64,000 nt of DNA from the IMG/VR virus record IMGVR_UViG_3300023184_000039, positions 62,001 to 126,000 of that record; one strand, given 5' to 3'. Shown one piece after another: positions 2 through 61,894 of this stretch. Below the pieces are notes generated by a model that was given only the letters and a program-made list of their open reading frames with translations, made no database searches and was not told where the DNA came from. Source of the stretch: a virus. A program made the translations under genes and the position numbers. Position 1 is the first letter of the stretch, and every line of letters starts with the position of its first letter.

Positions 2-1819
2 GCGCGCCTGCCAATCATTTTGCGAAAGGATAACTCCCCAGATGGAGAAATCGTTACTGGTAGCAAAGCAAAGAAATCAAGCCTCTTAGAAGTACTAAAC
101 ACCAAATCAAACATTGGTGAAAATTCTTTTATATTTAGGTACAGGCTTTCCGCACAGTTGCTTCTTGGAACCCGTGGCGTATTTATTGAAAAGGTACGCG
201 GACGTGATGGGAGCATCGTCGGGTTGAACCTTCTGCCACCACAGCACACTGCACCAATTCCTGATGTTAAAAAATTTGTTTCTGGCTACGAAGTTACTAT
301 GCCAACTGGCGAAATAGTAGTTATGAAACCAGAAGATGTTTGCTGGATTCGACGCCCACACCCACTTGACCCATATCTTTCACTAACACCAATGGAGTCT
401 GCTGGTGTTGCTATTGAAATTGAGAATTTTGCAAAATTATATAATAGAAACTTTTTAATGAACGACGGAAGACCCGGTGGAATACTTGTTGTCAAGGGCG
501 AAATTGCCGACGACGATAAAGAAGAATTAAGAAATAGATTTAGAGGAAACCTGTCTCGCGCAGGATTGACGACAGTACTGTCTGCTGATGATGGTGCCGA
601 ATACGTTGATACGAGTTCGTCTCCTAGGGATGCTGCGTATATTCAAATGCGACAGATTACCAAAGAGGAAATTCTTGCATCGTTTGGTGTTCCAGAAACA
701 GTAATTGGCAATGCATCTGGAAGAACATTTAGTAATGCATCAGAGGAGATTCGGGTGTTTTGGATGGAGACAATGCTTCCCCATCTTGAGCCACTTGCCC
801 GAGCACTTGATGAATTGGACGAAGAGAATTATGTTGATTTTGATTTGTCCGAAGTTCCAGTCCTTCAGTTGTACAAGCAAGAACGAGAAAGATACCTTAA
901 AGATGAATTGTCGCAGGGTTTGATTTCCGTTAATGAGTACAGAATTTCAAGCGGAAGAAAAGAAGTTGATGCTGACCTTGCTGACTCACTTCTAATGAAT
1001 CCAAACTTGACACCGATTGCAAATACGAAAAAGAAAATGGAAGAACCACCAGTGATGGCGCCAGGGGCACCAGGGGCACCAGGCGCACCAGGTGAACCAC
1101 CACCACCGGGGATGGAAGGTATGCCACCAAGCGAACCACCACCATCGGGTCTAGACCCAAATACAATGGCTGGCGCTCTTGCTGCTGCATCCGCAGGTGG
1201 ACCACCAGCAGATGCTGGATTTCCGGCAAGTGCCCCACCACCGCCAATCGGTGTAACGGCAAATGCTATGGCCCCAGTCCCCGCAGGAGCCGCCTCAGCA
1301 GACACGATGCTTGCCTACAAGACAGAAGAAATGAACAATGCCCTAGAGCGATGGACGCAAATTCTTGACCGTTCGCTAGAGCGAGTTCTTGAGCGCCAAC
1401 AACGAGTCGTTTTGGAAAAAGCTGGTGGTGCAAAATCCAAGAAGGCACTATATGCAGGAACCATGCAGCCAGATTCCATCTACGGTATTGACATTTGGGA
1501 AAAACAAATGGACGAGGACATCAAGCCAGTTGTGACGGCAATAATTAGGGATTCTGCAGAAATGAATAGCCTTGAAATTTCGTCAATGGAGATATTTGAA
1601 AAAGCCACACGTCATATGAACAGAATCAAAATAGTCAATCACAACATTGGCGAGCAGATAAAGTCGGCAATATCAGATTCCCTGAATGTCGCTGGGGAAG
1701 AACCAAGACACGAATTTCTTCGCAATGAACTAGTGCAAGTTTATACAAATGCACTTGGGAAAATTCGCTATCAGGTCGCATCTGATGAGGCTCGTCGTGC
1801 TTGGGAGAACAGTTTTTAA
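2..1819 (+). CDS. HK97-type portal protein (5' end cut by window)
   Basis: Forms the dodecameric portal at the head vertex through which DNA is packaged. The frame is open to the left edge (residues reading RLPIILRKDN precede the first possible TTG start at 20), so the N-terminus lies outside the window. The body has the phage portal pattern: a segment where the protein refers to a right-hand landing loop (NDGRPGGILVVKGEI) followed by a helical stretch and the ASFGVPETVIG segment typical of HK97-family portals. Residues about 340-430 form a Pro/Gly/Ala-rich low-complexity stretch with three GAP repeats (nt 1060-1240), absent from most portals; it is followed by a charged helical C-terminus. 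The giant protease gene lies 105 nt downstream, the usual portal-protease order. The family assignment is secure; the role of the Pro-rich tail is unknown. Confidence 0.88.
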   Translation, partial: ARLPIILRKDNSPDGEIVTGSKAKKSSLLEVLNTKSNIGENSFIFRYRLSAQLLLGTRGVFIEKVRGRDGSIVGLNLLPPQHTAPIPDVKKFVSGYEVTMPTGEIVVMKPEDVCWIRRPHPLDPYLSLTPMESAGVAIEIENFAKLYNRNFLMNDGRPGGILVVKGEIADDDKEELRNRFRGNLSRAGLTTVLSADDGAEYVDTSSSPRDAAYIQMRQITKEEILASFGVPETVIGNASGRTFSNASEEIRVFWMETMLPHLEPLARALDELDEENYVDFDLSEVPVLQLYKQERERYLKDELSQGLISVNEYRISSGRKEVDADLADSLLMNPNLTPIANTKKKMEEPPVMAPGAPGAPGAPGEPPPPGMEGMPPSEPPPSGLDPNTMAGALAAASAGGPPADAGFPASAPPPPIGVTANAMAPVPAGAASADTMLAYKTEEMNNALERWTQILDRSLERVLERQQRVVLEKAGGAKSKKALYAGTMQPDSIYGIDIWEKQMDEDIKPVVTAIIRDSAEMNSLEISSMEIFEKATRHMNRIKIVNHNIGEQIKSAISDSLNVAGEEPRHEFLRNELVQVYTNALGKIRYQVASDEARRAWENSF

Positions 1820-1924
1820 TTTCAGTATTTAGATATAGTGAAATGAGCCCGTAAAAGGCATTAGTTGCACTGAAGGCAAGTAAAACTGGATTACTATTTA
1901 TATCAATCCTAACGATTGGTCTTT

Positions 1925-4900
1925 ATGAATAGTGATTTTAAATTCAAATCAAACCCTGGCGTTGTCAACATTGACGAAGCACAGGGCATTGTTGAATGTT
2001 TCGTTGCCGGTATCGGGAACAAAGACAGCGTTGGCGACATTGTTATTAGTGGTGCTTTTGCAAAGAGTTTGACCCGAAGGAAGCCACGCGTTGTTTGGGG
2101 ACACAGTTGGAACGACCCAATCGGCAAAGTTCTTGAGATGTACGAAGTTCCACCAAATGATTCTCGCCTACCAGCAAAAATGAAGGCGGCCGGAATTGGT
2201 GGCTTGTATGCCCGTGTTCAATTTAACTTGCAGTCAGATAAGGGCAAAGAGGCATTTGCGAGCGTTGCCTTTTTCGGTACAGACCAAGAGTGGTCAATCG
2301 GATACAAAACAATAGATGCAATTTTTGACCCTAATCTTCAGGCAAATGTTCTTAAAGAAGTTGAACTGTATGAAGTTTCTCCAGTCCTTCACGGTGCCAA
2401 TCAATTAACTGGAACCATCTCGGTTAAGAACCACCCAGTCAGTTCGGCGATGCCAACGATGATGCCAATGACAATGGACCAAATGCCTCGGATAGTTATT
2501 GTTAGTTCTGATTCGATTGGCGAACCACAAGAAGAGCGCGAAGAAGACGATGAGCAGGAGTTAAATCTTTTTGCCGAGGGATTAGCGCAACCATTGACCG
2601 ATGAGCAAAAAGCAAAGATACAAAGCGAACTTTCGGAAAGAACTGGTTCAAAGGTAGAAATAACCCATGCAACCGAGGGTTCAATAGTATTCAAGAGGAC
2701 GACAACAGACGGAAAAACTTCCATGTACCGAGTTGGGTATCACACCCCAGACGATTACAACACCTTCATGTTCGGTAAGCCAGAAATTTATGCTGATGGG
2801 GAAAAGCCTCAAGCCGAAACAGAAATTCAGTCAAAGCCAAACCCAGACACACCAGTTGTACTTGCTGATGGCGGGGCTTCTTACCGTGACAACGAACAAC
2901 AGATGTCATCATTCCTCGGTTCTGAAGAGAATGTAAACCCATGGGGCAAATCATTAGCAATGCATCTCATTCAATTGCCGGGATATTCAATGAAGGATGC
3001 ATCGCAAAAACTTTCTTCAATTTTTGAATACCACAAACTTGATGTTGTTGAAACAAATAACGGTCTACTTGTAACCAGTCAGTTGTCATCGGATGCAATG
3101 GATGCATTGCAAGTTGCCGTAAAGGGGATTGGTCAAGCACTTGGTCAATCTGCTGGAACATTGCGTTCAATGTCAGAGGGATTTAACCCACATGCAATTG
3201 ACGGTGACAATGATGGTTTTGCACAAGACAACACTGCATTCATGCGTCCCTATATTCCAATCGGAAGTCTTGATATAAACCTTCCAGACATTGGTGGAAA
3301 AAAACGTAACTCTTCTGATTTATTGGACATGCCATCGCTGGGGTCAAAGATTCCCGATGGTGACCCATCACTACTGTCTGGCACTGAGCGCGAAGCCGCA
3401 CTTGCTGCAGGAAAATTAACTCCTCGCACGCGCGAAGACATGATGTTCCTTGCTGACAGAAGACCAAATAATCCAGGTCTCGCCAAGTATTGGGACATGA
3501 ATGACAATGAACTCACACTTGCTGGACAGCGACTCAAGAGTCAGCGTGCTTCTGTTTCAAGTAACGAGCGCGGTCCAATTGATGCGGAACTATACAAAAT
3601 CTCACATGAGTTCACTCGTCGCCAATCGTACGAGCAACAGTTTGGCAAGAAATTCACTCCGTCAAAAGACGGTAAGAAGAAACCAGAAAAACTAAATGCC
3701 GCTGGTCGTACCGCCGAACAAGAAGCTCAACGGATGGAAAAATTTAGAGCCGATGCCGATACCGAGATTGTTGATGATGCAAGAGCACTCGGTTCGCGCT
3801 CTGGGGAGAAACCGAAGAAACCAAATACTGCTGGTCGTACTGCCGAACAAGAAGAATTGCGAACGGAAAAATTGCGCGACGGTGCAAACGACGACCTGAT
3901 TACAGATGCATATGACCGTGGCGAACTTGGTTCACGTTCAAATCCAGAACAGAGTGCGGCAGGACAGAAAATAATTGAAGACATGCTGGTTGCTCGTGGT
4001 TACGGCAGAGAAGAAGCCGGCAACATGCTTGACAACTGGAACGAAAACGACAACGGCACAGAAGAAATTCTTAAGTCAAATAAAAATGACCTTCTTGCTT
4101 CAATTGAAGAACATTGGTCAAATGCACTTGACAGAATGAATGACGATAAAGAGTCTCGCAGTCTTGGCTCACGCAGTGGCGAAAACCCAACACCAGACTA
4201 CCAAGACCAGTTTGATTCCGTTGTTGAAAAATGGTTTGACTCGCTACCAGACAGCAAGGAACGCGTTCAGGAATATCTTGACGAAGGTTTTGGTAAACAG
4301 AACGCTCGTGAAACAGCAATAGAAAAATGGATGGAATTAGAACAGAGTGAAAATCCAGAACTGTTCATGGACGAAATCCAGAACAGAATTGACGACTTAA
4401 ATGAAAACAGATGGGACGACTACCAGTCTCGTAATCTGGGTTCGCGTTCAAAGCCACTTGGTTCACGTGGTGACAAAGACGAATCAAACCGAGAAGAGAC
4501 ATTGGCTCAACGCCTAAAAGAAATTGATGGACTTTCTGCTGAGGAAGGATACATACCAAGACGCGGTCCACAACCTAGCGACCTTCAGCGTGACATGTAC
4601 GAGGAATTTGCAAGGTACGGTAACCAAAACGATGTTTGGGATTATCTGAACACTAGATACAGTGTTGAGAAATCTGATTACAGTGAGCCAGGATACTATA
4701 CAAATGAAAACAATTACAATCTCAGTGGCGCAATAAAAGACTCCATGTCCGAAGAGGACATGCGGAACTTTTTGAAAGCAGTAGCCGAATATGAGGCCAG
4801 CCCAGACTACGACGTATACAAAAAGGGAGGCCCCCTATACGACGAGTTGAACAAAAATCCGAAGCCACTCGGTTCACGTAGTTCTGACCCAATTGATGAG

Positions 4901-7900
4901 GCAATGAAGAAGCCTTCCAAGCCAGCAAAAATTCGTGAATACGGCGCCGAAGAGTATCAAGAATTTAATACCAGCAGGAACAACGACCCTCAGCAAGGTT
5001 TTGATGAACCAGTCTCTGATGATTTCAAATCTCACGAAGATGGCTCAAAATTTGTTGGACATACGGTTACCTTTTCCGATGGAAGAAGGGGCGTCATCGT
5101 CCAGGGTTATTGGCCAGAATATGAAATTATAGACAACGATGAATATCCCCCATCATTCATCTTTGACAGGGTTGGGAGTATTGATATTGCCGTCACACAC
5201 GACAAAGATGGCAATCGCCTAGATAAAATTCAATATGAAAAAGCAAAATTTGACCAAGAGTCAGACCTTGCGATTGCAAGCGAAGAATATCCATTTGAAT
5301 ATTACAATGACCCCGAACTCGCAGATGAGTTTAGTAGGTCATCCGTTCAGATTGACGACAACAAGGTAAGCCTTGAGGAGGTAGAAAAACTTAAACAACG
5401 CCCGAGCAAGCCACTCGGTTCACGTGGTGCACGCAAATCAACAGATGACTACAAAGATTTGGTTGATTGGTTGCCAGACCCAACCTCTGGCTCAACGAGG
5501 AAATACACAGATACCACCGATGGCGCCCTCAAGGTTGCCGAGGACAGGTATGCACTCATTCATGCTCGTCGTGAAATTGCCAAGGAAATGGCAGAAGCGA
5601 ACGGCGTAGAGTGGAAAAAGAACATCAGTATTTATGATGTATCAAAAGATGATGACGATATAGACATATTGGAAGACCTAACCAGCAGAATCAACAAACT
5701 CAATGATTATGTGACTGCACAAGACAAAGAATACAGACAAATTCGCAACCAAGAGAAAAAGGTCTACAAATCTGATTCGGAACTATCAGATATTAAGAAT
5801 TCAATAGACCTCGCTCTTGAAGGTTACGAAGGTACCGAGCGTGATATTGAGGAATATTCGGGCGACAATGCCGTGGACTGGTTCACTACAACACCAGAGG
5901 AAAATACAAAAGAACTAGCAGATAGTTTGAGGGATGACTTGGAAGAGTTGACCATTCACGAGGACGAGAATGGAAACGAGACACTCGCTAGAGAGTATTC
6001 CGAAGATATTGCCGAAGCAAAGACCCTGATAGATAAGGGCACACCAGAAGATTTGCAAAAAGCAATAGAGGTAATGCAAGGTGCTATTCGCAAGCAATCT
6101 GATGATTACGATACTGCTGCAAGAAATTACGAAGCTGAGGGTGACGAACTCCTTGGCCGTGGGTATAGACCAGTTGACTTGCTAGACGAAGATGTGGACT
6201 TTGCCGATGACACCTGGGAGTATGACGACGATTTAGACATAAAGGATGTTGGCGGCAAATACTCCATAATTCCCGACGAACTCTATGGCCCAGAACCAAC
6301 AGACAGTCCTTTCCATAGTGGCAAGGAGTCAGTTGACTATTACATGGGTCGGTCCAAGAATGCCCAGTACCTGAAACAGCAGGGCGTAGGACGATATGCT
6401 CTTGGCTCACGCTCGCAAGCGGATTCAGAGGGGCAAAAACCACCACGCAGAGCGGTTCTGATGTCGATGGACCCCAAGAATTCCAAACTTGCAAGACAGA
6501 TTGATTACGACCCACAAAATGGTGACCTCACTGTTTACCGCAAAGATGGCAAAAAAGAAACATTCAAAAATGTTTCTTATGACCGTGTTCGTGCGGCCGG
6601 AGTAAAAGACGACCCAGATACGCTCATTAATGCACTTCAGAAAGAGCAGAACAAGCCACGAAGTGGCTCGCTTGGTTCACGTCAAACATTGCAAAAGATT
6701 GATGTTGGCGACAGCCAGGCAATAGACGACATCCATTACGACGATATGCGCAAAGAACTGCATGTCGGTTTTACATCCCCAGATGGAGAGACTCGTCGGT
6801 ACACATATTTTGGTGTTTCGCAAGATGAGGCAGATGCCATTGATGCATCACCAAGCAAGGGTCGTGCAATCAACGACATCAAGAGAAACCACGATGTGGA
6901 GAAGATTGATTCGTCTGCCCTCAAGAGAGTGACTGGGACCAGCGACGAGCGCATGATTAGCCCCCTTACTGATTCTTCTGGAAAATATCCAGGTATCGGC
7001 GAACCAATTGATGTATCTGGAAGTTCTGCTTTAGAGGATGCTTTCTACGACCCTCGTAAGAGAGAGTTGGTTGTCAAATACAAAGATGGTGGCTCGTATG
7101 TCTACGAGCAAGTTCTTCCCGGAGAAGCAAGTACATTAAATTCTGCCCCAAGTAAAGGTCGTGCAATTAACGACATTAAAAAGAATCACTTTGTTCGCAA
7201 GTATGAAAAAGAAGCCGGCTCGTCAAAACTTGAATGGAGCGAGACAAGCGGAACCAGTTCGGAAACTTCTGGTCGCTCGGGTCTTGACTACACAATTGAA
7301 AAACAAGCAGATGGAACCTTTTCTGCTGAGGCTGGAAAATCCACATACTCCTACCAAGACGGTCCCGATTTTGAAACCGTTGACACAGCAGACGGATTTG
7401 AGACAGAAGATGCCGCAAAGACATGGGCAGCACAACACGATTTTGCTATTATTGAAAGAGAATCAGGATACGACAAAATTGACAGAGACAATGAGAGGGC
7501 TCGTAGGAACCAACCAGTAGATGTTGGTTACAGTTCAGCACTCGAATCTGCAAGTTGGGATGAAAGAAACAATGAATTAAGCATCACGTACAAGGGTGGA
7601 AAGAAATACATCTACTCAGACTTCACTCAAGACGACCTTGACAAATTTGAAGCCAACCCAAGTAAGGGCAGAGCAGCAAACGAAGTCAAAAAGAATCACC
7701 CAGTCCGCAAGGCAGACAGTGGCCCACTTGGTTCACGTTCCACCGGGAAGTCATCTCCATCAAGAGCGGTCATTCCAACAATGCCAGACATTGATGGAAT
7801 GGATGAACAAGATGCATCGGACGCATTAGAAAAATCCAATGAAGAGTTGCTTGATTTTATTGATGAAACAGAAAAACTGGCAAGAATGTCGCGTGGTGAC

Positions 7901-10900
7901 GATAACTACAACAAATATTTCGGTGGTGCAGTTCCATACATAGAAGAACTATCCAAGAACCATGACGGTTCAGTTGAAGAGCGTAGTATTGCTTTGGAAC
8001 AAGCAATTGACCAAGCAATGTTATATAGTCAGGATGTTGGTTCTTTGGGTGACGAGCGTGAGTCTCGCGAACTCGGTTCGCGTTCTGGTGCAGGTATCTA
8101 TCGCAGTCCTGGGCGCGGTGCTCCACGACCAATTCGCAGAGATGAAGGACTCCGTGAATTGACCCCATTTGACGAACTCCCGCCAAAGGTTCAAGAACGT
8201 GTCAACGAAAGTGTCATGGAATATCTCTATGACGAAAATCGCGGCATGTATTATGACGCCCAAGACGGCGGCGTTGACATGGATGAATTCCTTTCAGATA
8301 ATGCAGGATTCCATCCATATGGATATGTGGCTTTGACAGACAAGGAAAGAGCCCAAATTCGCGAACAAATGATGGATAGGTTTGCACCAAGAGAATACAT
8401 GGATGAGTATGGCGACGAAGTAGATGCAATGATTGCCAACTGGGACAAAGAAGTGGAAGTAAACCCAGACGAAATGGTTGATTTGCTGGACAAGAACAAG
8501 GATGACTATGTTGAGGCCATTCGCGATGCATGGGATATTGAGATGGATAGGCAACTCAATTCTCGTGAACTCGGTTCACGTAGTTCGGGCAACATTGACG
8601 ATGTTGATGTAAGTGGGTCAAGTGCTCTTGATTCTGCCTACTACCATGCGCCAACAGGTGAACTCGTAGTTGGTTATGCCAATGGAAGAAGTTATGTCTA
8701 CGAAGGAGTATCCAACGAAGAATTCCAAAACTTTAATGACAGCCCGAGCAAGGGCAGGGCTATCAACGAAATCAAGCGCACACATAGCTTCCGAGTTGCC
8801 AGTGATGAGGACAGAAATGACCGCATTGCAGGTGACAGAAGTGAAAGTGATGCAATGTCAAGAGGTGCTCTTGAGTCAAACTGGAAGAGAATCGGTTCAG
8901 CAGAACAACAACGATATCTTTCCCGTGAAACCAATAGTGCAATAAGTTCTGGTTCTGGTCAATCAACGGACGAACTTCTTAATGCAGCAAAAATGAGAGC
9001 CATGGATGACAGAAACATGGCCGACCTAGAAATGCAAGCAGAGTCGGTTGGTTCTGGTGGACGAAGCATTGATGTTTCTTCGAGTCAGGCACTCAACCGA
9101 GTGACATACGATAAAGAAAACGAATTACTCTCTGTTGAATATCGCGGCCGTGACGGTAAGGGTGCTGGAACGGTTTACGAATACCAAGGTGTCCCAGAAG
9201 ATGTTGTAGCAAGCCTAGAGTCGTCAGACAGCCGGGGTGCAGCACTTCGTCAAATCAGAGACGACTACGAATTCACTACTCGTGATGCACTGCCAGATTC
9301 TGCATATGACAAAACATCAAGCAAGCCACTCGGTTCAAGCAGCTCCAACAATACCCCTAATTTCAATCGTGAAGACATGGGTAAAATTCTTGACCGCGTT
9401 AGACAAACGCGAGAATTCCAAGACCTTGAAGAAGTCCAAAATACTCTTGACGGATACATGGAGCGTTCTCCAAGCAGAACCCGTGCAAGTTATCCAGAAC
9501 TTGATAAAGAAGAAGTAAGGGTAAGCAAACTGCTTGTTGAGAAGCGCAACGAGATAATTGCGGAGATGCTTGATGCTGGTGAAATAACAGACATTTCTGG
9601 TAAGCGTAAGCCACTCGGTTCGGGTGGGCGAATGGGGCCACGACCAGATGATTCTTCATATGCTCGTGACCTTGCAGACCAACGAAACAGAGATTATGCA
9701 GCAGGGGCCTACGCAACAAACCCAATAGGTAGATTTGCAGAAAACACAGATGGTGATAAGCCGTGGGTTTCGTATGAAGACCTAGACGCCGATGTTCGTG
9801 GCGAAATTGAGCAATCATATTATGAAAGCAATCCTGGGAGCCCACGTCCTGGAGCACGAGACTGGGACTCAGATTATGCACAAAACGACTTTGAAATGAA
9901 CCCAGGGAAGTATGGGTATGCGGACGAGGCAAGTTTTGAAGAAGATTTTTCTGCCGATATGGCAAGGTTTGAATCTAGGCGCAAGCGACTTGGTTCAAGT
10001 AGTGGCTCTTGGCCAACACCAAGTGGATATGAGCCAGACGAGTTCAACATGAACGAAGCAATGTCGCAGATTGGTCGTGGCAATATTGCTGCAATCTCTG
10101 GTGGCAGAGTTGTTAAGCGTGGCAATGAAATGGTTCTCCCAGTCAACAGGAATCAACAAGTAGTTGTTGGTTACAACGGCGGCTCGGATACCTATTACGT
10201 TCGAGCAGAACAAATAATCACAAGTGGCAAAGATAAAGGTAAACACAAAATCCTCGCACAATGGGGTGAGGTTTATGCAGAAAATGTTGGAGAAACGGCA
10301 TACAACGCATCTTTGAAACCATCAATGCACAGTGAAGAAAATGCAGATTTCTGGAAGACATCAGACCTTATTCCAAAGAACACGCTTGTTGACGGTGAAA
10401 CCGGAGAGAAGATATCAAACGCAGGACCACTCGGCTCACGTGGTTCACCCGGAAGCACTCGCCCAGGAATGGGTGTCTATACCGAAAACAGCGACGACAT
10501 GCTTTACGACGAAGCAAACGGACCAAGAAACTCAATTAGGCGTCGTGGCAACTATTCGCCACCAAACCAAAGACTGCTTGCAAGACAAGACAGAGCAGAA
10601 GCAATTGAAGAACTTGCTCAAAAAAATATTACACGGATGGATATTCTCAGAAAGACAAACCCTAAGAGATTTAGGGAAATGCTCAAGCGAGAAAATATAG
10701 ACCGTAGGGATTGGCGAGAACTTGCATACAGAGATGCAACAAATGCAATTGACCAACTTGCTAGGTATCAAGAACGCCGAGCCAGCGGTAACGGCATTAG
10801 AAGACCGCCTGGCGGCAACCTCCCAAAAGTTGACCCGTCACCACGGGGTGACGGACTCTCGCCGTTTGCAAACCTGAAAGACGGCGACATCGTCACTCTT

Positions 10901-13879
10901 GATAACGGAGCATTTAAGGTAAACGGAACTGAAGAATTGCGTGGAGCACTTGGTTCTCGCGCATTTAATTACGGACCAGAAACAGAAGTGAAGACAAAAG
11001 CAGAAGCAATGAAGATGCTTACCGACCAATTGATAAAATCAATTGAGTCAGCAGAAACTGGTGAATGGAAAATGCCATGGAGGGTTACAACCCTTCCGAC
11101 AAACCCAACAACTGGAAAAATGTATTCTGGTTCCAACTTTATGATGTTGTCCCTTATTGGTGAAGCGCGTGGATACACAAGTTCACAATGGGGTGGATAC
11201 GGACAATGGGCAGACAAGGGTGGACAGGTTCGCAAGGGAGCCAAAGGTGTTCCCGTATTTGTTCCGATGCCGTTCAAGGGGAAGTTGGACCCAATAACAA
11301 ATGAAGAAGACGGGGGCGGAATGTCATGGAAAGTCATTCGGGTATTTAACCGTGACGAAGTAGACGGACTGCCAGAAGATTTTGCAAACCCACCAGTTCT
11401 TCCAGAGGGAACAAGAATTGACAACCTGGAAAAAACAATTTTGGAAGTTGCGCCAAAAATAACCAATAGTGGAAGTAGGGCTTTCTACCGACCAAGCGAA
11501 GATTCAATTACCGTTCCAGAATTTAAAAATTTTAAAAGTGCACGCGATTACTACAGTACGGTTGCACACGAACTGATGCACTGGACTGGAAGTGAGTCGC
11601 GTCTCAACAGAAAAAAAATGAATGCTTTTGGTACACCAGAGTATGCATACGAAGAACTTGTCGCCGAAATTGCATCAGCAATGTTTATTGGGGCTCATGG
11701 ACTTGAGCCAAACATTCAAGAAAACCATGGACCATACCTGAAGAGTTGGCTCGCGGTGCTCAAAGATGACCCAACTGCATTACAACGAGCAATTAAGGAT
11801 GCCCAGGCCGCATTTGATTACGTCAATGGTGCTTCCCCAAACCTCAGGGGTTTGATGGGTTCCGAAGATAATGGCGGTCTAGAGGCTTCTGCAAAAACAG
11901 TTGAAAAATTGTCAACTCCATTGGGTTCCATGACATCGCGCCCCGGCATAGGGCTTACAGCCAATGATGTTAGGGATATGGATAGCGACCAACTTGATTC
12001 CATAATGAACCATTTCGGTCCACAAAATGTATACAACGCTCGTCCCGGTGAGATAACGCAGGAAGATTATGAAGATATTGCAAAATTCCTAAATAACCTT
12101 ACAGCCGAAGAGGTAATGGGATTCAGTAATCGTGATAGGGGCACATCTAGACCATTGGGTTCACGTTCCAGTTCTGGCGTGACAGACGGAAAACCCAAGA
12201 GTGCTAGAGCAAAACTTGAAGATGTCCCAGTACCCCCAATGCCACGCCAGTACGACGAAAACAGGACCAGTTCCGATGCATACGAAGATACTGAAATGGA
12301 AATTAGCAGTTACCTAGAGTCTCTTTCAAATGCCATGAAAGAGATTGTTGGCGATGATGAGTTTGAAAAGACATTCAAGCCAAGAGTGGACAGCATTATT
12401 GATGACATGCGAGACGAGCGTTCCCAATATGCAGAACCGCCAGACTGGGCTCTGAACAGGGCATGGAAACTTCACAAGGAAATGGTTTCTCGGTCACGCA
12501 TGCGTGAGCCGCTTGGTTCTAGTAGTGGCAATGGACCGCTTGGTTCTCGCATGAATCTTAGCCAAAGTGAGAAAAACGAAATAATCGCAATGGCACGACA
12601 AATGAGAAAGTCAAACTTTGCCAAAAGTGTTGTTGCACAATATGACACAAACGGCGGACAATTATCGGATGGTCAATGGGCGGCATTGAACCGAATGACC
12701 TTGCGAGGTGGTGGGAGAAATGCAATGGGTTCTCGTAGTGAACCAAAAAAGCCAAGAACACCCAAAGGTGGATGGTCGCCAGAAGATAGGCAGAGATTTG
12801 CCGACAGAGATATTCTCAAGTCACGAAAAGTTCCAGGTAAGCGTCTCCCGGGACCAAGTGCATCCGAGTATGGTGCACTGGGTTCAAGGTCGGCATTTGT
12901 TAATGGACGAACAGTTGACATGGAGCCCAGACAGGACACCAAACCACTACGAATTGGATTGAGCGACATTGTATTCGGAGATGACGGGAAGGGTAAATCC
13001 TGGGCTTTGGCCGACCTTGCTAGAAGTAGTTCTGAATTCAGAAATATAACCCCACAGGAATTAATGGGAAGATACGGAATTTCCGAACGTGCCGCTCTTG
13101 ACATGAAGAAACCAGGTGCAAAAATACGTGACCCATACCTAGCAGACGAACTGACTAATGCCTTTGGTTTTACCCCATCCGAAATTTGGGGACGAAACAA
13201 TCCAACTGCCTACCAAAATGCAGATGGAAGCCTAGTGGACCTATCGGACCTGTTTGAAAAGCCAGATAAAGACTTTGACCCAACACTTGATGGTTCGCTA
13301 CCCGTGGTGGAACTTCCAGATGCTGATGCAACATTGGAAGGAATTTCTTCTGCCGATGAAGCACGGAAGGTACGCAAGAGGGTGGGTGGTTCGCGCAGTG
13401 GAAAACTATCAACGGGTTATGATGCCCAGGTTCTTCTTGATGAGATTGGATACAACGGCTCCCGAAGTAGGCGCGCCCTTGAGCAGGCTTTCCCAGAAAT
13501 ATCAGAAAAGCGCTGGAGGTCAATTGCGGGCAAGGATTCAACGACTGGATTGACAGTAAACGAAGTCAATTCAATCCTAAAAAGATTAAAGTCAAACAAA
13601 AAGGGGACTGATATTTTTGGGGAATCATTTGAATCTGGAACCCAAACCCCCGTTGCCTCAATTTTCAGAAACCCACTCATTGTTGCAAACATTGAAAAAC
13701 GGGGTGGAATGAATGCAGTCGCCGAAGCCTACAAAAAGGCAACTGGTAGGAGTATCTCAAGAGCGCAGTCGTACAGATTGAGGGATAGCAAGGACTCCAT
13801 CACATCAACGGAACTACGAGTGATGCTGAATGAACTCGGTATTTCCGTGGAAGAGTTTGATGCACGAAATAAGGGGTAG
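1925..13879 (+). CDS. Prohead protease fused to giant multidomain polyprotein
   Basis: About 3,984 residues. Residues 1-170 resemble the HK97 prohead protease (S78): a conserved WGHSWNDPIG segment with His60 and a WSIGY segment with Ser124, likely catalytic, then VSPVLHGAN. The rest is modular. Residues about 420-442 hold an acidic Ca-loop-like AIDGDNDGFAQD motif. Then come helical W-rich modules, five KTSC domains (about 1589-1659, 1693-1762, 1863-1932, 2225-2292, 2380-2454), an ArdC-like N domain (about 3012-3119) with a metallopeptidase HELMH at 3215-3219, and two HTH-like segments (about 3679-3762 and 3906-end). Modules are separated by about 24 linkers of the form (P/A/E)LGSR(S/G) or LGSS. 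ArdC plus zincin modules are hallmarks of phage polyvalent proteins. I chose ATG 1925; a TTG lies 9 nt upstream. Self-cleavage at the linkers is inferred, not shown. Confidence 0.85.
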   Translation: MNSDFKFKSNPGVVNIDEAQGIVECFVAGIGNKDSVGDIVISGAFAKSLTRRKPRVVWGHSWNDPIGKVLEMYEVPPNDSRLPAKMKAAGIGGLYARVQFNLQSDKGKEAFASVAFFGTDQEWSIGYKTIDAIFDPNLQANVLKEVELYEVSPVLHGANQLTGTISVKNHPVSSAMPTMMPMTMDQMPRIVIVSSDSIGEPQEEREEDDEQELNLFAEGLAQPLTDEQKAKIQSELSERTGSKVEITHATEGSIVFKRTTTDGKTSMYRVGYHTPDDYNTFMFGKPEIYADGEKPQAETEIQSKPNPDTPVVLADGGASYRDNEQQMSSFLGSEENVNPWGKSLAMHLIQLPGYSMKDASQKLSSIFEYHKLDVVETNNGLLVTSQLSSDAMDALQVAVKGIGQALGQSAGTLRSMSEGFNPHAIDGDNDGFAQDNTAFMRPYIPIGSLDINLPDIGGKKRNSSDLLDMPSLGSKIPDGDPSLLSGTEREAALAAGKLTPRTREDMMFLADRRPNNPGLAKYWDMNDNELTLAGQRLKSQRASVSSNERGPIDAELYKISHEFTRRQSYEQQFGKKFTPSKDGKKKPEKLNAAGRTAEQEAQRMEKFRADADTEIVDDARALGSRSGEKPKKPNTAGRTAEQEELRTEKLRDGANDDLITDAYDRGELGSRSNPEQSAAGQKIIEDMLVARGYGREEAGNMLDNWNENDNGTEEILKSNKNDLLASIEEHWSNALDRMNDDKESRSLGSRSGENPTPDYQDQFDSVVEKWFDSLPDSKERVQEYLDEGFGKQNARETAIEKWMELEQSENPELFMDEIQNRIDDLNENRWDDYQSRNLGSRSKPLGSRGDKDESNREETLAQRLKEIDGLSAEEGYIPRRGPQPSDLQRDMYEEFARYGNQNDVWDYLNTRYSVEKSDYSEPGYYTNENNYNLSGAIKDSMSEEDMRNFLKAVAEYEASPDYDVYKKGGPLYDELNKNPKPLGSRSSDPIDEAMKKPSKPAKIREYGAEEYQEFNTSRNNDPQQGFDEPVSDDFKSHEDGSKFVGHTVTFSDGRRGVIVQGYWPEYEIIDNDEYPPSFIFDRVGSIDIAVTHDKDGNRLDKIQYEKAKFDQESDLAIASEEYPFEYYNDPELADEFSRSSVQIDDNKVSLEEVEKLKQRPSKPLGSRGARKSTDDYKDLVDWLPDPTSGSTRKYTDTTDGALKVAEDRYALIHARREIAKEMAEANGVEWKKNISIYDVSKDDDDIDILEDLTSRINKLNDYVTAQDKEYRQIRNQEKKVYKSDSELSDIKNSIDLALEGYEGTERDIEEYSGDNAVDWFTTTPEENTKELADSLRDDLEELTIHEDENGNETLAREYSEDIAEAKTLIDKGTPEDLQKAIEVMQGAIRKQSDDYDTAARNYEAEGDELLGRGYRPVDLLDEDVDFADDTWEYDDDLDIKDVGGKYSIIPDELYGPEPTDSPFHSGKESVDYYMGRSKNAQYLKQQGVGRYALGSRSQADSEGQKPPRRAVLMSMDPKNSKLARQIDYDPQNGDLTVYRKDGKKETFKNVSYDRVRAAGVKDDPDTLINALQKEQNKPRSGSLGSRQTLQKIDVGDSQAIDDIHYDDMRKELHVGFTSPDGETRRYTYFGVSQDEADAIDASPSKGRAINDIKRNHDVEKIDSSALKRVTGTSDERMISPLTDSSGKYPGIGEPIDVSGSSALEDAFYDPRKRELVVKYKDGGSYVYEQVLPGEASTLNSAPSKGRAINDIKKNHFVRKYEKEAGSSKLEWSETSGTSSETSGRSGLDYTIEKQADGTFSAEAGKSTYSYQDGPDFETVDTADGFETEDAAKTWAAQHDFAIIERESGYDKIDRDNERARRNQPVDVGYSSALESASWDERNNELSITYKGGKKYIYSDFTQDDLDKFEANPSKGRAANEVKKNHPVRKADSGPLGSRSTGKSSPSRAVIPTMPDIDGMDEQDASDALEKSNEELLDFIDETEKLARMSRGDDNYNKYFGGAVPYIEELSKNHDGSVEERSIALEQAIDQAMLYSQDVGSLGDERESRELGSRSGAGIYRSPGRGAPRPIRRDEGLRELTPFDELPPKVQERVNESVMEYLYDENRGMYYDAQDGGVDMDEFLSDNAGFHPYGYVALTDKERAQIREQMMDRFAPREYMDEYGDEVDAMIANWDKEVEVNPDEMVDLLDKNKDDYVEAIRDAWDIEMDRQLNSRELGSRSSGNIDDVDVSGSSALDSAYYHAPTGELVVGYANGRSYVYEGVSNEEFQNFNDSPSKGRAINEIKRTHSFRVASDEDRNDRIAGDRSESDAMSRGALESNWKRIGSAEQQRYLSRETNSAISSGSGQSTDELLNAAKMRAMDDRNMADLEMQAESVGSGGRSIDVSSSQALNRVTYDKENELLSVEYRGRDGKGAGTVYEYQGVPEDVVASLESSDSRGAALRQIRDDYEFTTRDALPDSAYDKTSSKPLGSSSSNNTPNFNREDMGKILDRVRQTREFQDLEEVQNTLDGYMERSPSRTRASYPELDKEEVRVSKLLVEKRNEIIAEMLDAGEITDISGKRKPLGSGGRMGPRPDDSSYARDLADQRNRDYAAGAYATNPIGRFAENTDGDKPWVSYEDLDADVRGEIEQSYYESNPGSPRPGARDWDSDYAQNDFEMNPGKYGYADEASFEEDFSADMARFESRRKRLGSSSGSWPTPSGYEPDEFNMNEAMSQIGRGNIAAISGGRVVKRGNEMVLPVNRNQQVVVGYNGGSDTYYVRAEQIITSGKDKGKHKILAQWGEVYAENVGETAYNASLKPSMHSEENADFWKTSDLIPKNTLVDGETGEKISNAGPLGSRGSPGSTRPGMGVYTENSDDMLYDEANGPRNSIRRRGNYSPPNQRLLARQDRAEAIEELAQKNITRMDILRKTNPKRFREMLKRENIDRRDWRELAYRDATNAIDQLARYQERRASGNGIRRPPGGNLPKVDPSPRGDGLSPFANLKDGDIVTLDNGAFKVNGTEELRGALGSRAFNYGPETEVKTKAEAMKMLTDQLIKSIESAETGEWKMPWRVTTLPTNPTTGKMYSGSNFMMLSLIGEARGYTSSQWGGYGQWADKGGQVRKGAKGVPVFVPMPFKGKLDPITNEEDGGGMSWKVIRVFNRDEVDGLPEDFANPPVLPEGTRIDNLEKTILEVAPKITNSGSRAFYRPSEDSITVPEFKNFKSARDYYSTVAHELMHWTGSESRLNRKKMNAFGTPEYAYEELVAEIASAMFIGAHGLEPNIQENHGPYLKSWLAVLKDDPTALQRAIKDAQAAFDYVNGASPNLRGLMGSEDNGGLEASAKTVEKLSTPLGSMTSRPGIGLTANDVRDMDSDQLDSIMNHFGPQNVYNARPGEITQEDYEDIAKFLNNLTAEEVMGFSNRDRGTSRPLGSRSSSGVTDGKPKSARAKLEDVPVPPMPRQYDENRTSSDAYEDTEMEISSYLESLSNAMKEIVGDDEFEKTFKPRVDSIIDDMRDERSQYAEPPDWALNRAWKLHKEMVSRSRMREPLGSSSGNGPLGSRMNLSQSEKNEIIAMARQMRKSNFAKSVVAQYDTNGGQLSDGQWAALNRMTLRGGGRNAMGSRSEPKKPRTPKGGWSPEDRQRFADRDILKSRKVPGKRLPGPSASEYGALGSRSAFVNGRTVDMEPRQDTKPLRIGLSDIVFGDDGKGKSWALADLARSSSEFRNITPQELMGRYGISERAALDMKKPGAKIRDPYLADELTNAFGFTPSEIWGRNNPTAYQNADGSLVDLSDLFEKPDKDFDPTLDGSLPVVELPDADATLEGISSADEARKVRKRVGGSRSGKLSTGYDAQVLLDEIGYNGSRSRRALEQAFPEISEKRWRSIAGKDSTTGLTVNEVNSILKRLKSNKKGTDIFGESFESGTQTPVASIFRNPLIVANIEKRGGMNAVAEAYKKATGRSISRAQSYRLRDSKDSITSTELRVMLNELGISVEEFDARNKG

Positions 13880-23558: not shown

Positions 23559-24197
23559 ATGAAAAAAGAAACAGAAGAACAGGCATATGCACTGAGAATG
23601 GCAATCCAACTTGGGTGTGCTGGTGCCCATAAGGGTCCAGATGGCAAATGGATGCCGTGTAAAGACATGTCCGAAATGGAGCGACTGTCAAATGCCGCCG
23701 AGGAATCGTCATGGACTAATGACAACTCAATTTCTTCCCTAAGACGCAGGGAGCAAAGTGCGAGACTTTACGGGAAATCGGCTCTCATGGAATCAATTGA
23801 AAAAGGGAAAAAGCGCAAACCAAAAAAGAAGGGATGGGAAAAACTTACCGAGAAACCACTTCCCGTTGGGGGCATTGGAACACTCCCCAGTGGGGGCTTG
23901 TATGGCATGACATCAAAGGGTTTGGCTGTACCCATCTCGGCGCCACGTGATGCCGACCCAGATGTTTTTTCTGACCCTGATTCGGCACGGATGCGAGCCA
24001 GACAACTTGACTGCATCGGCATAAGTCGAAGGGTTTCAAGGAGCGGGAAAACGATATGGACACCCTGCACCAATATGAGCGACTATGCAAGGTCTGCCGG
24101 AACAACGGCATTGGGCAAAAAAAACAAGAAAGAAAAAGAGCGCAGGGTGGTCAGAACAATCGTTAATGAGGAACTAAAAAAACGTACAAAACGGTAG
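23559..24197 (+). CDS. Basic protein with two related Cys-x-W-x-P-C motifs
   Basis: 212 residues, Lys-rich. It contains two copies of one short motif: LGCAGAHKGPDGKWMPCKDM near residue 18 and LDCIGISRR...KTIWTPCTNM near 150. In both, a Cys in a (L)xCxG context is followed about 14 residues later by W-x-P-C and a Met. The spacing suggests a small structural knuckle or disulfide, possibly metal binding. Last gene of the portal-to-capsid string; a 116-nt spacer separates it from the capsid gene. The function is unknown. Confidence 0.7.
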   Translation: MKKETEEQAYALRMAIQLGCAGAHKGPDGKWMPCKDMSEMERLSNAAEESSWTNDNSISSLRRREQSARLYGKSALMESIEKGKKRKPKKKGWEKLTEKPLPVGGIGTLPSGGLYGMTSKGLAVPISAPRDADPDVFSDPDSARMRARQLDCIGISRRVSRSGKTIWTPCTNMSDYARSAGTTALGKKNKKEKERRVVRTIVNEELKKRTKR

Positions 24198-24313: not shown

Positions 24314-25615
24314 ATGGCACAGGAAAATTTGAAGGAGCTCCAAGGAGCACTTCGTCAAAAAATGGCAGACAATAAGTCAATCGCCGACTCGTTCAAGGTC
24401 GAAGAGGGCACAGTTGTCATTAACCAAAAGCAGAAGTCAGCTTTTGATGCAAACATGAAAGACATCAAAGAACTCAAGGGTTTGATTGATGGCATGGAAG
24501 CAATGGAGCAAGTTCAGCAGTGGGGCGCACAAGCATCAGACACATCTGTTGCAGCAGCCGCAGCCGCTGGTTACTCAATCCCTAAGCAACAACTTGAATC
24601 AATCGGCGAGTCATTCTTGGCTTCAGCTGAATTCAAGGCTCTTGCTGGTGGTCGTAACGGCGCAAACATGCCAGCACCATTCCAGTACAACGGAAGATTT
24701 GATACCCCTGGTGGTTACAGCCAAAAGGACGCTTACACAGCAATGCCAAGCGGCTTTCCAACACAGTTCGGTTCAGTTCAACGTGACCCAATCGTTATCC
24801 CACCACGTCGCACAAAGCGAGTTCGTGACCTATTCCCAGTTCGTACGACCACATCGGCAATCATTGAGTATTTCCGCATGACTGGTTTCACCAACAACGC
24901 AGGCATGGTTCCAGAGCGCAACGGCGATACATTTGCCGCGAAGCCACAATCAAGCATGACGTTTGAAGGTGTTCAGACATCGACACGGACAATGGCACAC
25001 TGGGAAGCAGCACACAGAAATGTTCTTGCTGACGAACCACAGTTGCGTTCAATCATTGACAACGAGTTGATGTACGGTCTTCGTCTCCAAGAGGATTACC
25101 AAATCCTTAACGGTGACGGCAGTGGAGAAAACCTTCAGGGCATTTTGACCACTCCTGGCATTCAGACCTACAACTGGTCAATGGGTGCAACCTTGCCAGT
25201 CAAGGACACCAAGGCCGATGCAATCCGTCGTGCTGCAACCCTCTCCTTCTTGGCTTACTACGAGCCATCTGGTGTTGTCTTGCATCCAAACGATTGGGAA
25301 GACATCGAAATGACCAAGGACAGCAACGGTCAGTACCTGATTGCAGTTTCGGTTGCATTGGGTGGAGAACCAAAGGTATGGCGCTTGCCAATCGTTGAGA
25401 CTCCAGCAATGACTGAAGGAGTTGCTCTTATCGGTTCATTCGGTCAGGGTGCACAAATCTACGACCGTGAGCAGGCCAGCATTCGCATTAGCGAACAACA
25501 TGCTGACTTCTTCATTCGCAACGCAATCGTCATCTTGGCCGAGCAACGTCTCGCCCTTGCTGTCAAGCGTCCAGAGTCGTTTGTGAAACTAACCTTCAAT
25601 AACGCACCTGCTTGA
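24314..25615 (+). CDS. HK97-fold major capsid protein
   Basis: 433 residues. The N-terminal 110 residues are a charged helical delta-like domain ending in an Ala-rich patch, probably removed by the prohead protease. The body matches HK97-type capsids: IVIPPRRTKRVRDLFPV, a beta-rich segment with RTMAHWEAAHRNVLADEPQL, then the DYQILNGDGSGENLQGI loop and GVVLHPNDWEDIEMTKD, and a C-terminal RLALAVKRPESFVKL strand, a typical closing segment. AAGGAA precedes the ATG. Codon use is more uniform and C-ending than in neighbours, as expected of a highly expressed gene. A strong terminator follows, and the 116-nt leader (24198-24313) leaves room for its own promoter. Confidence 0.95.
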   Translation: MAQENLKELQGALRQKMADNKSIADSFKVEEGTVVINQKQKSAFDANMKDIKELKGLIDGMEAMEQVQQWGAQASDTSVAAAAAAGYSIPKQQLESIGESFLASAEFKALAGGRNGANMPAPFQYNGRFDTPGGYSQKDAYTAMPSGFPTQFGSVQRDPIVIPPRRTKRVRDLFPVRTTTSAIIEYFRMTGFTNNAGMVPERNGDTFAAKPQSSMTFEGVQTSTRTMAHWEAAHRNVLADEPQLRSIIDNELMYGLRLQEDYQILNGDGSGENLQGILTTPGIQTYNWSMGATLPVKDTKADAIRRAATLSFLAYYEPSGVVLHPNDWEDIEMTKDSNGQYLIAVSVALGGEPKVWRLPIVETPAMTEGVALIGSFGQGAQIYDREQASIRISEQHADFFIRNAIVILAEQRLALAVKRPESFVKLTFNNAPA

Positions 25616-29009: not shown

Positions 29010-29084
29010 GGCTGACGAGGTAGGGGTCGAACCTACGACAAGCGGATTAACAGTCCGCTGCTCTGCCAACTGAGCTACTCGTCA
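29009..29084 (-). tRNA. tRNA-Asn (GTT)
   Basis: Reads TGACGAG acceptor, D-stem GCTC/GAGC, anticodon stem GCGGA/TCCGC with loop CTGTTAA (anticodon GTT), T-arm GTAGG-TTCGACC-CCTAC, and 3' CTCGTCA. Discriminator G is followed by an encoded CCA; its A is also the A of the downstream dioxygenase ATG. All stems pair perfectly. Confidence 0.96.
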
Positions 29085-29113
29085 TTGATTTATTGAAGAC
29101 TAGTTCATCTTTG

Positions 29114-29185
29114 TATCCCATGGAGGAATCGAACTTCCATCGATTGCTTAGAAGGCAATTGCTTTATCCATTAAGCTAATGGGAT
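29114..29185 (-). tRNA. tRNA-Arg (TCT)
   Basis: Acceptor ATCCCAT/ATGGGAT, D-stem GCTT/AAGC, anticodon stem ATTGC/GCAAT with loop CTTCTAA (anticodon TCT, reads AGA), T-loop TTCGATT with one A-C mismatch in the T-stem. Discriminator A; no CCA encoded. Its first base is the last base of the HNH gene's stop codon. AGA codons are frequent in this genome and usually rare in actinobacteria, which would explain keeping this tRNA. Confidence 0.93.
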
Positions 29186-40524: not shown

Positions 40525-43500
40525 ATGAATAACCTTGAGATACTGCTTGATGTCAAAGAACTAGGTCGTTACCAACGTAAGGTAATGACCCCATTAGATG
40601 AAGCATTTGACCCTGATGCTATTGATGGTGATGGTGATGGATTAGTTCAAGATAGAACTCCATTTGAGAGACCTGCCATTATCACTGCGATAACAGAGAC
40701 AGCACAAAGGATAAGTCAAGGTATCCGTGATGCTGGTCGTCTCAATCAGAAGCGCTCACACAATGTACATCGTGAGAGGCTAAGGGGTAAGAGCCATAGT
40801 GAGATAGCAGAGACACTAGTACCTAATGACTATGCCTCACTAGCATCATCCCTTACAGAGATGGCTATACAAGACCTAGGTGTTGATGCCTCACCTGCTG
40901 CCATACAAACTTGGATACAGGGGAAAGTATTTGACCTCACGGGTGATGCTACGGGTGATGTATTTGACTTCACACCTAAGCACATACGTAAGTTGCGTAA
41001 GACAGTAGAGAAGCACCTTGATGAACTACCTATGTTCAGACGACTAGTAGATGACTATGGTATGCCCCCCTTCTTCATACTAAAGAAAGGTGACTTCTCT
41101 GGTATCACATCACACGGCTTTGGTATAGGTGTGACTACTGGTGGTATGGGGTGGACAGATGGTAAGGGCAATCGCATACCCATACTTCGTTCCATATCAC
41201 TCAAACTTGGCTACTTTGATAAGTCTGGTGGTAGCAATAAGACAAAGAGATGGCTTACTGATACTGGTGTTAGGGGTACTGTGCTACACGAGTATGGTCA
41301 CTACCTAGCAGGTGTGCTGTATGACGACATTGTGAGTAACAAGTACGGTAAGTGGGAGGGTAGTCCTGATGTAGTGGACTTTGCTAGGTACATCAATATG
41401 GACTCCTTCAGTATCTCTACTCAGAACAGATTTCCCAATGTAGATGGCAAGGTAGGTAAGTCAATACCCGATGTGTTCTCTGCTATGTTCCATAAGCCTG
41501 AGTGGGATGAGGCTTGGAGTAAAGGCGACCTTCCTGATGAACTACCTCACGTACTTTCTTTCTATTCAGAAACAAACCCTTCAGAACAGTTTGCTGAAGG
41601 AATGGCGGCCCTTCTTTCTACCGACCCCAAACAACACAAACTTGTGTCACCCGGATTTGAGGATATGGTTAAACAACTTGTTGGATTAGAGACTGATGTA
41701 CCCTTTCAGTCTCAAGGTAGTAAATACAATGTAGACACCCTTGACTTACCACAAGTGACACAAGCACTTGGTTCTAGAGGTAGAGACTTCACAACACCTT
41801 CAGGAAACAAAGAGTTATGGCATCCAATCACCAAAGATATGGATGCTACAGAACTAGCAGAACGAATACATCCATCTAGTGCTGAAGAACTCATCTCAAT
41901 AATGGCTGAAGAAAACCACAGAATAACACCCACCTCATCCATCGAAGACCACAAGGCTTTGGTAGGACAAGTTCTTATGGAACTGTTTGAGGTCAAGTCA
42001 GTAAAAGAACTTGACTCAATGATGGATTTGTCAAAGAGGGGAGACAGGGTTGGGGCAATGGAACAACTCCTTCTAGACAACCCATCTTTGATGCTCCTAC
42101 ACAATCAGTATGGAGCGCCACCCCTCATACACCTCACACCAGAAGCATATGATGATGCTGCCAGAAGCCTAGAAGGAGAGTTTGCTGGAATACACGTCAT
42201 AGACCCACGACTCAATATTGGAACAATACTCCTATCACCCAACACCACCGACCTATTAGATAATTACAACACACCACTCCCACTAACTGGTGAAACTTTT
42301 CAGGAACTGCTTGACAACCGGCCATTGGGACAACGACTTGTTCTCTCTTATGCTAAGTGGAGAGGAAAGTATCCCAAGTCAGTGACATATATGTCTATTG
42401 GTAATAATGTTGAGCAACTCTACGCACACGAATATGCTCACTACCTACACGAACAAATGACGGCATCTCTCCCAATGGAGGGAAACCGTGAAAGACGAGC
42501 ATTACTCAGGGCATACTTGAGCGCAACTTGGGAGGAATTCTTTGCTGCTGTTGACAGACCAGATTGGGCTGAAGCATACACAAACAGAAGGAAAAAGGAT
42601 TTACCAGACGACTATCCGTTTGTTGACAGCGCATATGCCTTCTCAAACCCGTTAGAAATGTTCGCTGAGTCTTTCGCTGCTGCTACGGCTAGTGACCCAG
42701 CAATAAGGGGCGCAGTCAGTCCAGAAATGAACAGACAGATGGCGATGATGCTTGGACTTGACCCAGAACAAGCACTATATGAGCAATTAGTAGCCAATGA
42801 TGATGTAGTTAGCGCCTCACTTGACATATCAAGACCACTCGGCTCTAGGAGTAAGAAAAAGGACCGAGAGTTCTGGGAAAAAATGTATCCAGACAGAACC
42901 GCAGCAGAGTGGAAAGCGATTGAGGAAAAAATACAGCAAGAAAGAGATAATACCTATCTAGGTAGACCACTCGGGTCTGCCCCAAGTTTGACTGCTTCAG
43001 AGGCTATTCGTTCGCTTGATGAGGTAGCAAAGATAGAAGAACGTGACCTCATCACTACTGATGACCCAACACTACGACCCGGAGTACGAAAACTTGACAC
43101 AAAGGCTTGGGATGGCAAGGACATCTATCAAACAGCAGATGCTGGTGATGCGCTTGCCCTCATAGCAAACGGTCATTACGTTGAGATGACACACGAAGAA
43201 GGATTGTGGCTCGCCCTCGCAGACATAGGCAAGAGATGGAAAGAAATACAGAAGAGCAGCGGCAAGGAAATAAAAACACTCAATGCTTGTTTGTTTATGA
43301 CCGTTGATGCCAATGGTAAGTCAAACAACCTGTTCTGTCGAGGACACCACGATATTGCTCGATTGTCAATGCCACAAGTTGGTGGATATATGACAAAAGA
43401 AAATCAGGTCTTGCTACAAGCCTGGAGGTCAGGACTTACCGAGAACAGAGGTGGTGCTCACGATGCCTTCATTGGCGGCAATAAAGCCGTAGAAGCAATG

Positions 43501-59166: not shown

Positions 59167-59193
59167 GTAATCACTCAACAAGGGAGAAAACCG

Positions 59194-59433: not shown

Positions 59434-59434
59434 T

Positions 59435-61888: not shown

Positions 61889-61894
61889 CTACAT

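Follow-up and report, generated by a model that had tools for sequence, protein, structure and literature searches.

A giant phage protein joins an S78 prohead protease domain to a polyvalent polyprotein with repeated, lineage-specific linkers

Results

A prohead protease fused to a chain of diverse modules

The window, a stretch of 64,000 bases corresponding to bases 62001-126000 of the 140,645-base virus record IMGVR_UViG_3300023184_000039, carries a giant gene, designated P, between the genes for a portal protein and the major capsid protein, which is where S78 proteases are placed (Table 1). The open frame of P extends from a TTG at 1916 to 13879 (3,987 aa) and has no internal stop. Its N-terminal part was matched by the Pfam S78 family at E 5.3e-8 (33.6 bits against a cut-off of 21) and by the PHROG family 'head maturation protease' at E 1.3e-11, and His60 and Ser124 (numbered from the ATG), which we take to be the catalytic residues, were invariant in 21 of 21 aligned S78 sequences. 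The NCBIfam model proheadase_HK97 (TIGR01543) gave E 2.3e-12 and 47.3 bits, under its cut-off of 59, and the protease of P is therefore assigned to the S78 superfamily and not to that equivalog. A poor structural model of the S78 part (mean pLDDT 56) matched herpesvirus proteases only at E 0.36 and weaker in Foldseek, and no Foldseek match at E 0.001 or better was obtained from the models, both of them poor (pLDDT 56 and 46.5).

The roughly 3,800 residues of P that follow the S78 domain hold diverse modules, among which Pfam recognised five KTSC domains, an ArdcN domain and an MPTase-PolyVal domain; a PADLOC run on P returned nothing. Frames of 3,772-4,315 aa were open at the same place in the records of eight relatives, making an assembly artefact unlikely. 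Two parts of the preliminary description of this locus, an N-terminal S78 prohead protease with His60 and Ser124 and its fusion in one frame to more than 3,800 residues of diverse small modules, were thus borne out by the PF04586 and PHROG matches, the invariance of the two residues, the uninterrupted frame from the ATG at 1925 and the Pfam domains.

Elsewhere in the window, a Ferritin/Dps-like protein (25741-26397; PF00210, E 7e-15) is encoded shortly downstream of the capsid gene, and two tRNA genes, Asn(gtt) and Arg(tct), lie on the minus strand at 29009-29185. A 704-aa C-5 cytosine methylase (37071-39185; PF00145) has degenerate (A/S/T)PTL-core repeats in mid-protein, as read by eye. At 59104-63405, small ORFs in different genes start with SVPLGYDV, CLISVPLGYDV and CLTSVPSGYYV, which hints at a repeated DNA element upstream of them.

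Table 1. Coordinates of P, Q, their linkers and neighbouring genes in the window
Feature	Position	Strand	Details
P: S78 protease fused to polyvalent polyprotein	1925..13879	+	3,984 aa from ATG 1925
S78 prohead protease domain of P	1982..2419	+	residues 23-168 of 3,987; PF04586
Portal protein, upstream of P (context)	20..1819	+	PF04860 E 1.5e-44
Acidic tag in P (residue 423 on), common to Q and relatives' giant ORFs	3182..3250	+	
Linker LGSR, P 625	3788..3799	+	
Linker LGSR, P 671	3926..3937	+	
Linker LGSR, P 750	4163..4174	+	
Two linkers LGSR, P 841 and 848	4436..4468	+	
Linker LGSR, P 985	4868..4879	+	
Linker LGSR, P 1167	5414..5425	+	
Linker LGSR, P 1496	6401..6412	+	
Linker LGSR, P 1586	6671..6682	+	
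Linker LGSR, P 1938	7727..7738	+	
Linker LGSR, P 2053	8072..8083	+	
Linker LGSR, P 2219	8570..8581	+	
Best of five KTSC domains in P (residues 2389-2445)	9080..9250	+	PF13619 E 2e-47, 5 stretches
Linker LGSS, P 2472	9329..9340	+	
Linker LGSG, P 2567	9614..9625	+	
Linker LGSS, P 2692	9989..10000	+	
Linker LGSR, P 2839	10430..10441	+	
Linker LGSR, P 3012	10949..10960	+	
ArdC-like unit of P: ArdcN (3031-3127) and MPTase-PolyVal zincin (3171-3293)	11006..11794	+	PF08401 E 4.7e-23, PF18818 E 2e-38
Linker LGSM, P 3336	11921..11932	+	
Linker LGSR, P 3414	12155..12166	+	
Linkers LGSS and LGSR, P 3533 and 3542	12512..12550	+	
Linker MGSR, P 3604	12725..12736	+	
Linker LGSR, P 3655	12878..12889	+	
Major capsid protein, control	24314..25615	+	PHROG major head protein E 1e-69
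Q: second giant polyvalent protein (putative), linkers of same kind as P	40525..48606	+	2,693 aa
Acidic tag at start of Q (residue 28 on)	40606..40674	+	
Nine LGS/MGS linkers of Q	41767..48075	+	residues 415, 772, 816, 1305, 1323, 1578, 1999, 2004, 2514
DEDD exonuclease domain of Q (2270-2450)	47332..47874	+	PF00929 E 1.3e-5; PHROG 192 E 2.6e-16
GNAT acetyltransferase domain of Q (2594-2644)	48304..48456	+	PF00583 E 1.2e-5

A peptide repeat shared by three proteins of one genome

The chain of P is punctuated by a short linker. Twenty-three linkers match the pattern [LM]GS[RSGM], of which 17 read LGSR, and the median distance between the 23 is 117 residues. LGSE at 334, LGSK at 475 and MGSE at 3314 were excluded from this count by judgement; the 'about 24' LGSR-type linkers noted earlier for P were therefore close to the mark. 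In 1,000 shuffles of P, LGSR occurred 0.117 times on average and at most twice. Furthermore, LGSR was the commonest 4-mer of P when no motif was chosen beforehand, and no 4-mer exceeded five copies in 300 shuffles. The linkers differ at their fourth residue (R, S, G, M, Q or A), so that there is no fixed residue before a presumed cut.

A linker scan of the virus's own genome, in which 136 non-overlapping ORFs were kept, found more than one linker-like hit in only three of them under a stricter pattern, namely P (20), a second giant protein designated Q (3) and a 1,637-aa ORF outside the window (3); eight further ORFs had one hit each, presumably close to chance level. Judged from its sequence, Q looks like a second polyvalent protein, with its own linkers (of which MGSG at 1323 and 1999 are less certain), exonuclease and acetyltransferase domains and weak WYL matches, and PADLOC returned DEDDh and WYL accessory models only. 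The acidic tag common to P and Q comprises 23 residues, and the tag region of Q was matched in 15 of 21 relatives' records; we propose that it may serve as a capsid-targeting signal. The 1,637-aa ORF has the related sites ALASRS and ALGSGS, contains a glycine zipper and comes after the genes for tail sheath, tail tube and tail assembly chaperone, a spot which we take to be the usual place of a tape-measure gene. No family model names this ORF; on the basis of position, length and glycine zipper it is likely to be the tape-measure protein. Because the linkers are found also in Q and in the likely tape-measure protein, any recognition of them must also act in trans. A 1,376-aa protein encoded at 15543-19673, which had no family match, contains a zincin-like motif (HELNH) and, at residue 257, a single linker-like site, LSSRG, and is perhaps another cargo protein.

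Among the 33 linkers of P, Q and the tape-measure ORF, 25 distinct 12-base spellings were counted, indicating that the repeat is held at the peptide level. A DNA-level repeat or recombination signal was ruled out on this ground as the whole cause, and is also contradicted by the free third positions of the GFASR linkers and by the use of both serine codon families in the linkers of the related record G021. The core serine of the own-genome linkers was encoded by a TCN codon in 35 of 35 cases when counted by [LM]GS, which fits partly shared descent of the linkers.

The major capsid protein, the classic S78 substrate, was included as a control. It contains no linker, which counts against S78 as the reader, and in an alignment of nine capsid proteins the conserved region L-x-[GN]-G-[RKL]-N-G near the expected cut did not change with linker type. 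The capsid protein was consequently discarded as a tracer of the linker code.

Relatives of P and their linker versions

A scan of viral contigs yielded 579 stretches encoding a relative of the S78 part of P, showing such relatives to be common; the top 80 were retained, of which 21 served as handles, and 15 records entered the tape-measure work. As these records were picked by S78, its presence in all of them is by selection. Counted from the match on, the shortest of the relatives' S78 ORFs had 185 aa and the longest exceeded 3,500 aa, many of these ORFs ending at contig ends. The long ones carried repeated linkers of the FAS/FGS/LAS-R or LSSG kinds, and the shorter ones had a few LRSSG, LASST or LSSST sites or, in some cases, none. 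S78 proteins of 1,000-1,250 aa showed LRSSG, GLASST or LSSST-like sites in several instances and none in others, and ORFs without any linker included a 1,065-aa group and those of 468-554 aa. GSKSTT-like linkers were seen in the giant ORFs of G021 and LASST in those of G015 and G017, one G015 ORF having LRSTT. In G015 (L163, 48000-57000), the ORF directly upstream of the capsid gene encodes 879 aa with four LASST-type linkers, and its start resembles, by eye, the 212-aa protein at window positions 23559-24197, as if cargo had been added.

The linker versions, which were defined post hoc after inspection of the data, varied little within any one genome: P and Q share LGS, three G021 giant ORFs share GSKS, and G003 has GFASR both in its P (L009 lies in this record) and in its homologue of Q. 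As the kinds follow relatedness, the number of independent switches is small. Against reversed controls, the GFASR pattern scored 50 to 0 in seven records, GLASST scored 9 to 0 in G015, 4 to 0 in G017 and 1 to 0 in the own record, and the GSKS type scored 23 to 0 in G021, 3 to 0 in G015, 1 to 1 in the own record and 1 to 2 in G014. The motif-free 4-mer test gave 0 of 300 shuffles for nine long FASR- or LSSG-type proteins, the Q-homologue of G003 and both G021 proteins, and 1 to 5 of 300 for Q, two G015 proteins, one G017 protein, L075 and L082; it found nothing in L042, and the top 4-mer of L055 was a different one, KPEP.

A relative of Q was found in record G003, and the scans of viral contigs gave none. 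Among isolated phages there was no match to a tag peptide, to Q or to the middle of P; the ArdC unit of P alone matched 57 isolated-phage records, and the best-listed isolates by S78 and by capsid protein were Gordonia phages. A genome-contig scan returned three loci in Gammaproteobacteria and Phycisphaerae MAGs, which are not trusted as an indicator of the host.

Linkers as module boundaries and the origin of the fusion

When P or Q was aligned with 18 relatives' proteins, 54 of 154 homology breakpoints lay within 10 residues of a linker, as compared with 20.6 +/- 7.7 for shifted linkers, and 0 of 2,000 shifts reached this number, the alignments being non-independent. At distances of 15 (63 of 154), 20 and 30 residues, 12, 0 and 2 of 2,000 shifts, respectively, were as high. 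Alignments of fewer than 40 residues, P breakpoints before residue 640 and ends within 30 residues were skipped in this test. This clustering suggests that the linkers bound exchanged modules. Modules were seen to change order, residues 2687-2831 or 2694-2835 of P matching 1504-1651 of L007 and 3298-3439 of L019, and also to change chain, the ArdC unit of P and the exonuclease of Q both matching one G021 protein.

The G021 protease has a gene of its own (468 aa), and the frame that follows it downstream encodes a tag-headed giant protein with GSKSTT linkers. This 468-aa protease can be aligned with P as far as the stretch immediately preceding P's tag. Given this arrangement of a separate protease beside a tag-headed polyprotein, P looks like a fusion of two neighbours. 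The earlier suggestion that the protease carries its own substrates in cis and so in fixed ratio did not hold as the sole design, since the protease stands apart in G021 and the linker occurs also in Q and the likely tape-measure protein.

Concerted change of linkers across proteins

The preliminary description had asked for the linkers to be aligned across related phages, and this alignment placed the relatives' own versions at homologous positions. An aligned column in some relative was available for 25 of the 32 linkers of P and Q, and for 20 of these 25, by a reading by eye, at least one relative had a linker within two columns; at the aligned columns other relatives were without a linker, and some alignments cross KTSC repeats. 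Before the ArdC unit, the own LGSR stands against FGSR in L006 and L007; before MNLSxxEKNEII, it stands against FASR in the L019 group; and the LGSR at residue 2514 of Q corresponds to FASR in G003, LASR-TT in G015 and, a few columns off, SKSTTR in G021.

Of 15 tape-measure proteins, 12 carried a site of their own genome's kind, either near the N-terminus or in mid-protein, G001 being ambiguous and G014 and G018 having none. A pairing test was performed in which scoring matrices built from the linkers of other proteins, in 11 genomes, served to rank the tape-measure proteins; each of four sets contained a single genome for every linker kind, with 720 possible pairings. The true pairing came first among the 720 in three of the four sets, and in the remaining set 4 of 720 scored at least as well, a result that would be weakened by including G014 and G018, which were left out because they have no site. 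Five of the six rows in each set picked their own genome; the LSSG row did not. The test took 11 of the 15 tape-measure proteins, G005 and G008 being excluded as near copies of G010.

A site that is nearly uniform within a genome, present across its proteins, shifted between lineages and placed between modules is what would be expected of sites read by one enzyme, and on sequence grounds the linker looks like a lineage-specific recognition or cutting code. The excess of LGSR, the versions at homologous positions and the tape-measure pairing together uphold the initial view that the linker behaves as a specifically recognised site.

Discussion

Proposed working of P and Q

The reading that we favour, and hold tentatively, is that P and Q are polyvalent cargo in which the modules are set off by lineage-specific sites that a single phage protease, most probably the S78 enzyme, recognises. 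Both proteins would be chains of anti-defence and takeover domains that are loaded into the head and delivered to the host along with the DNA. The acidic tag, inside P and at the start of Q, would bring the chains into the prohead, where the phage's own S78 maturation protease would cut the linkers, in cis in P and in trans in Q and the likely tape-measure protein, so freeing the modules as separate proteins. Fusion of the protease gene with its tag-headed polyprotein neighbour would have given rise to P and would thereby place protease and cargo in one prohead. Cleavage at the linkers, S78 as the cutter, capsid targeting by the tag and entry of the modules into the host are all things that we infer. 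S78 is the leading candidate for the reader because it is fused to the chain, because its His and Ser are invariant and because related systems cut proteins at a short motif. Three points speak against it: the capsid protein is without a linker, a tape-measure protein, as a tail protein, would be an odd substrate for a prohead protease, and no one residue stands before the presumed cut. The S78 ORFs that have no linker, the small number of independent switches, the tape-measure proteins lacking a site and the LSSG row of the pairing test also weigh against the favoured reading.

A broader version, which we regard as possible and somewhat doubtful, is that the lineage as a whole relies on polyproteins much as eukaryotic RNA viruses do. 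Dozens of modules in several giant chains, together with the tape-measure protein, would then be freed at one cleavage code that drifts as a set with its protease, the linkers would mark module swaps, and the protease would have become the first module in this sub-lineage.

If cutting of the linkers instead followed ejection, through a protease of the host or a phage enzyme that is active solely inside the host cell, a site common to P, Q and the tape-measure protein would be expected, since all three would enter the cell; this would also explain why a likely tail protein carries sites and why the capsid protein, which stays outside, does not. However, it would leave the fusion of the chain to S78 unexplained, and entry of all three proteins into the cell is itself presumed, making this course of events unlikely.

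It is also improbable that the linkers are uncut, flexible joints spread by descent and module recombination, with lineage differences due to drift from a single ancestral joint. A shared joint would ease the exchange of modules, as the clustering of breakpoints at linkers would suggest, and the uniform TCN codon of the core serine points the same way. The linkers are, moreover, rich in G and S, and seven of seven fell in low-confidence parts of a poor model, in which 460 of 770 residues were of low confidence anyway. On the other hand, the local version stands at homologous positions and also in the tape-measure protein, in which no modules common with P were seen, and both the variety of spellings and the mixed serine codons of G021 speak against simple spread by descent.

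The linkers might instead be cut by MPTase-PolyVal, the zincin of the ArdC unit, or by a different zincin of P or Q, as was proposed for polyvalent chains by Iyer et al. in the accessible part of their article (PMC5512222). One HExxH motif is present in P and three are present in Q, and the MPTase family was detected in 9 of 15 records. MPTase-PolyVal was, however, not detected in the other 6 of 15, which may be incomplete, in a search that covered the MPTase family only, and it is therefore less likely as the common reader; G012, G015, G017 and G020 are among the records without it, yet have linkers or linker-like sites. Altogether, we consider cutting by a zincin quite unlikely. Least probable of all is a linker that stays uncut and is bound by an assembly factor, either a chaperone or the capsid interior, to arrange or thread the chains. 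Such a binding motif would explain the sharing in trans and the lineage-specific versions equally well, the clustering of breakpoints at linkers fitting cutting somewhat better than docking.

Should cutting of the linkers by S78 or another enzyme hold, phages would own a true polyprotein system with interchangeable cargo, and the sequence by itself would suffice to divide uncharacterised giant phage proteins into their units. With about six versions, the linkers would offer a natural experiment on a protease and dozens of sites shifting specificity together. Were the lineage-wide code true, new cargo could be added without any change to the processing machinery. The system of P and Q also provides a testable route for the loading of anti-defence proteins into heads.

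Comparison with known systems

In the accessible parts of the literature consulted, including PMC7824862, PMC5717097 and few subscription papers, no description of repeated lineage-specific linkers in phage polyvalent proteins was found, linker motifs not being among the search terms. The closest class is that of the polyvalent proteins, which Iyer et al. (2017), in the part of PMC5512222 available to us, likened to viral polyproteins and suggested to be released by embedded peptidases; the word 'linker' is absent from the paper. P and Q resemble this class in having disparate domains in each chain, an ArdC-N domain with MPTase-PolyVal and a phage head locus (PMC5512222, accessible part). The assemblin-like peptidase of those proteins is stated there to be always C-terminal, whereas the S78 domain of P is N-terminal (residues 23-168 of 3,987); the rule, as given in that part of the article, describes the data of Iyer et al. 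and is not a definition of the class. Gordonia phage DalanDe gp27 (ON755184) is, like P, an annotated capsid maturation protease with a long extension (1,633 aa), and its S78 domain is 40.8% identical to that of P over query residues 7-172. Unlike in P, this domain is situated nearer to the C-terminus, and inspection revealed no repeated linker.

Anti-restriction proteins are carried in the head of phage P1, where, according to the accessible portion of PMC12810830, the prohead protease is said to cut DarA; a signal for localisation to the capsid is present in DarB (PMC12810830 and PMC9024508, seen in excerpt). Unlike P, the Dar proteins are encoded by separate genes, and no linker-jointed chain is described for them in the accessible parts of these two articles. 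In SPN3US, the protease gp245, which has relatives in PhiKZ and 201phi2-1, cuts several virion proteins, some of them ejected, at AXE (PMC10052503, accessible part). In contrast to this SPN3US/phiKZ type, the major capsid protein of the present phage is without the motif. The likeness lies in a short motif common to several virion-type proteins of one genome, cleavage being presumed for the present phage. For SPN3US, the available part of PMC10052503 gives 14 sites in nine proteins, as compared with up to 23 sites in P within one chain that includes the protease.
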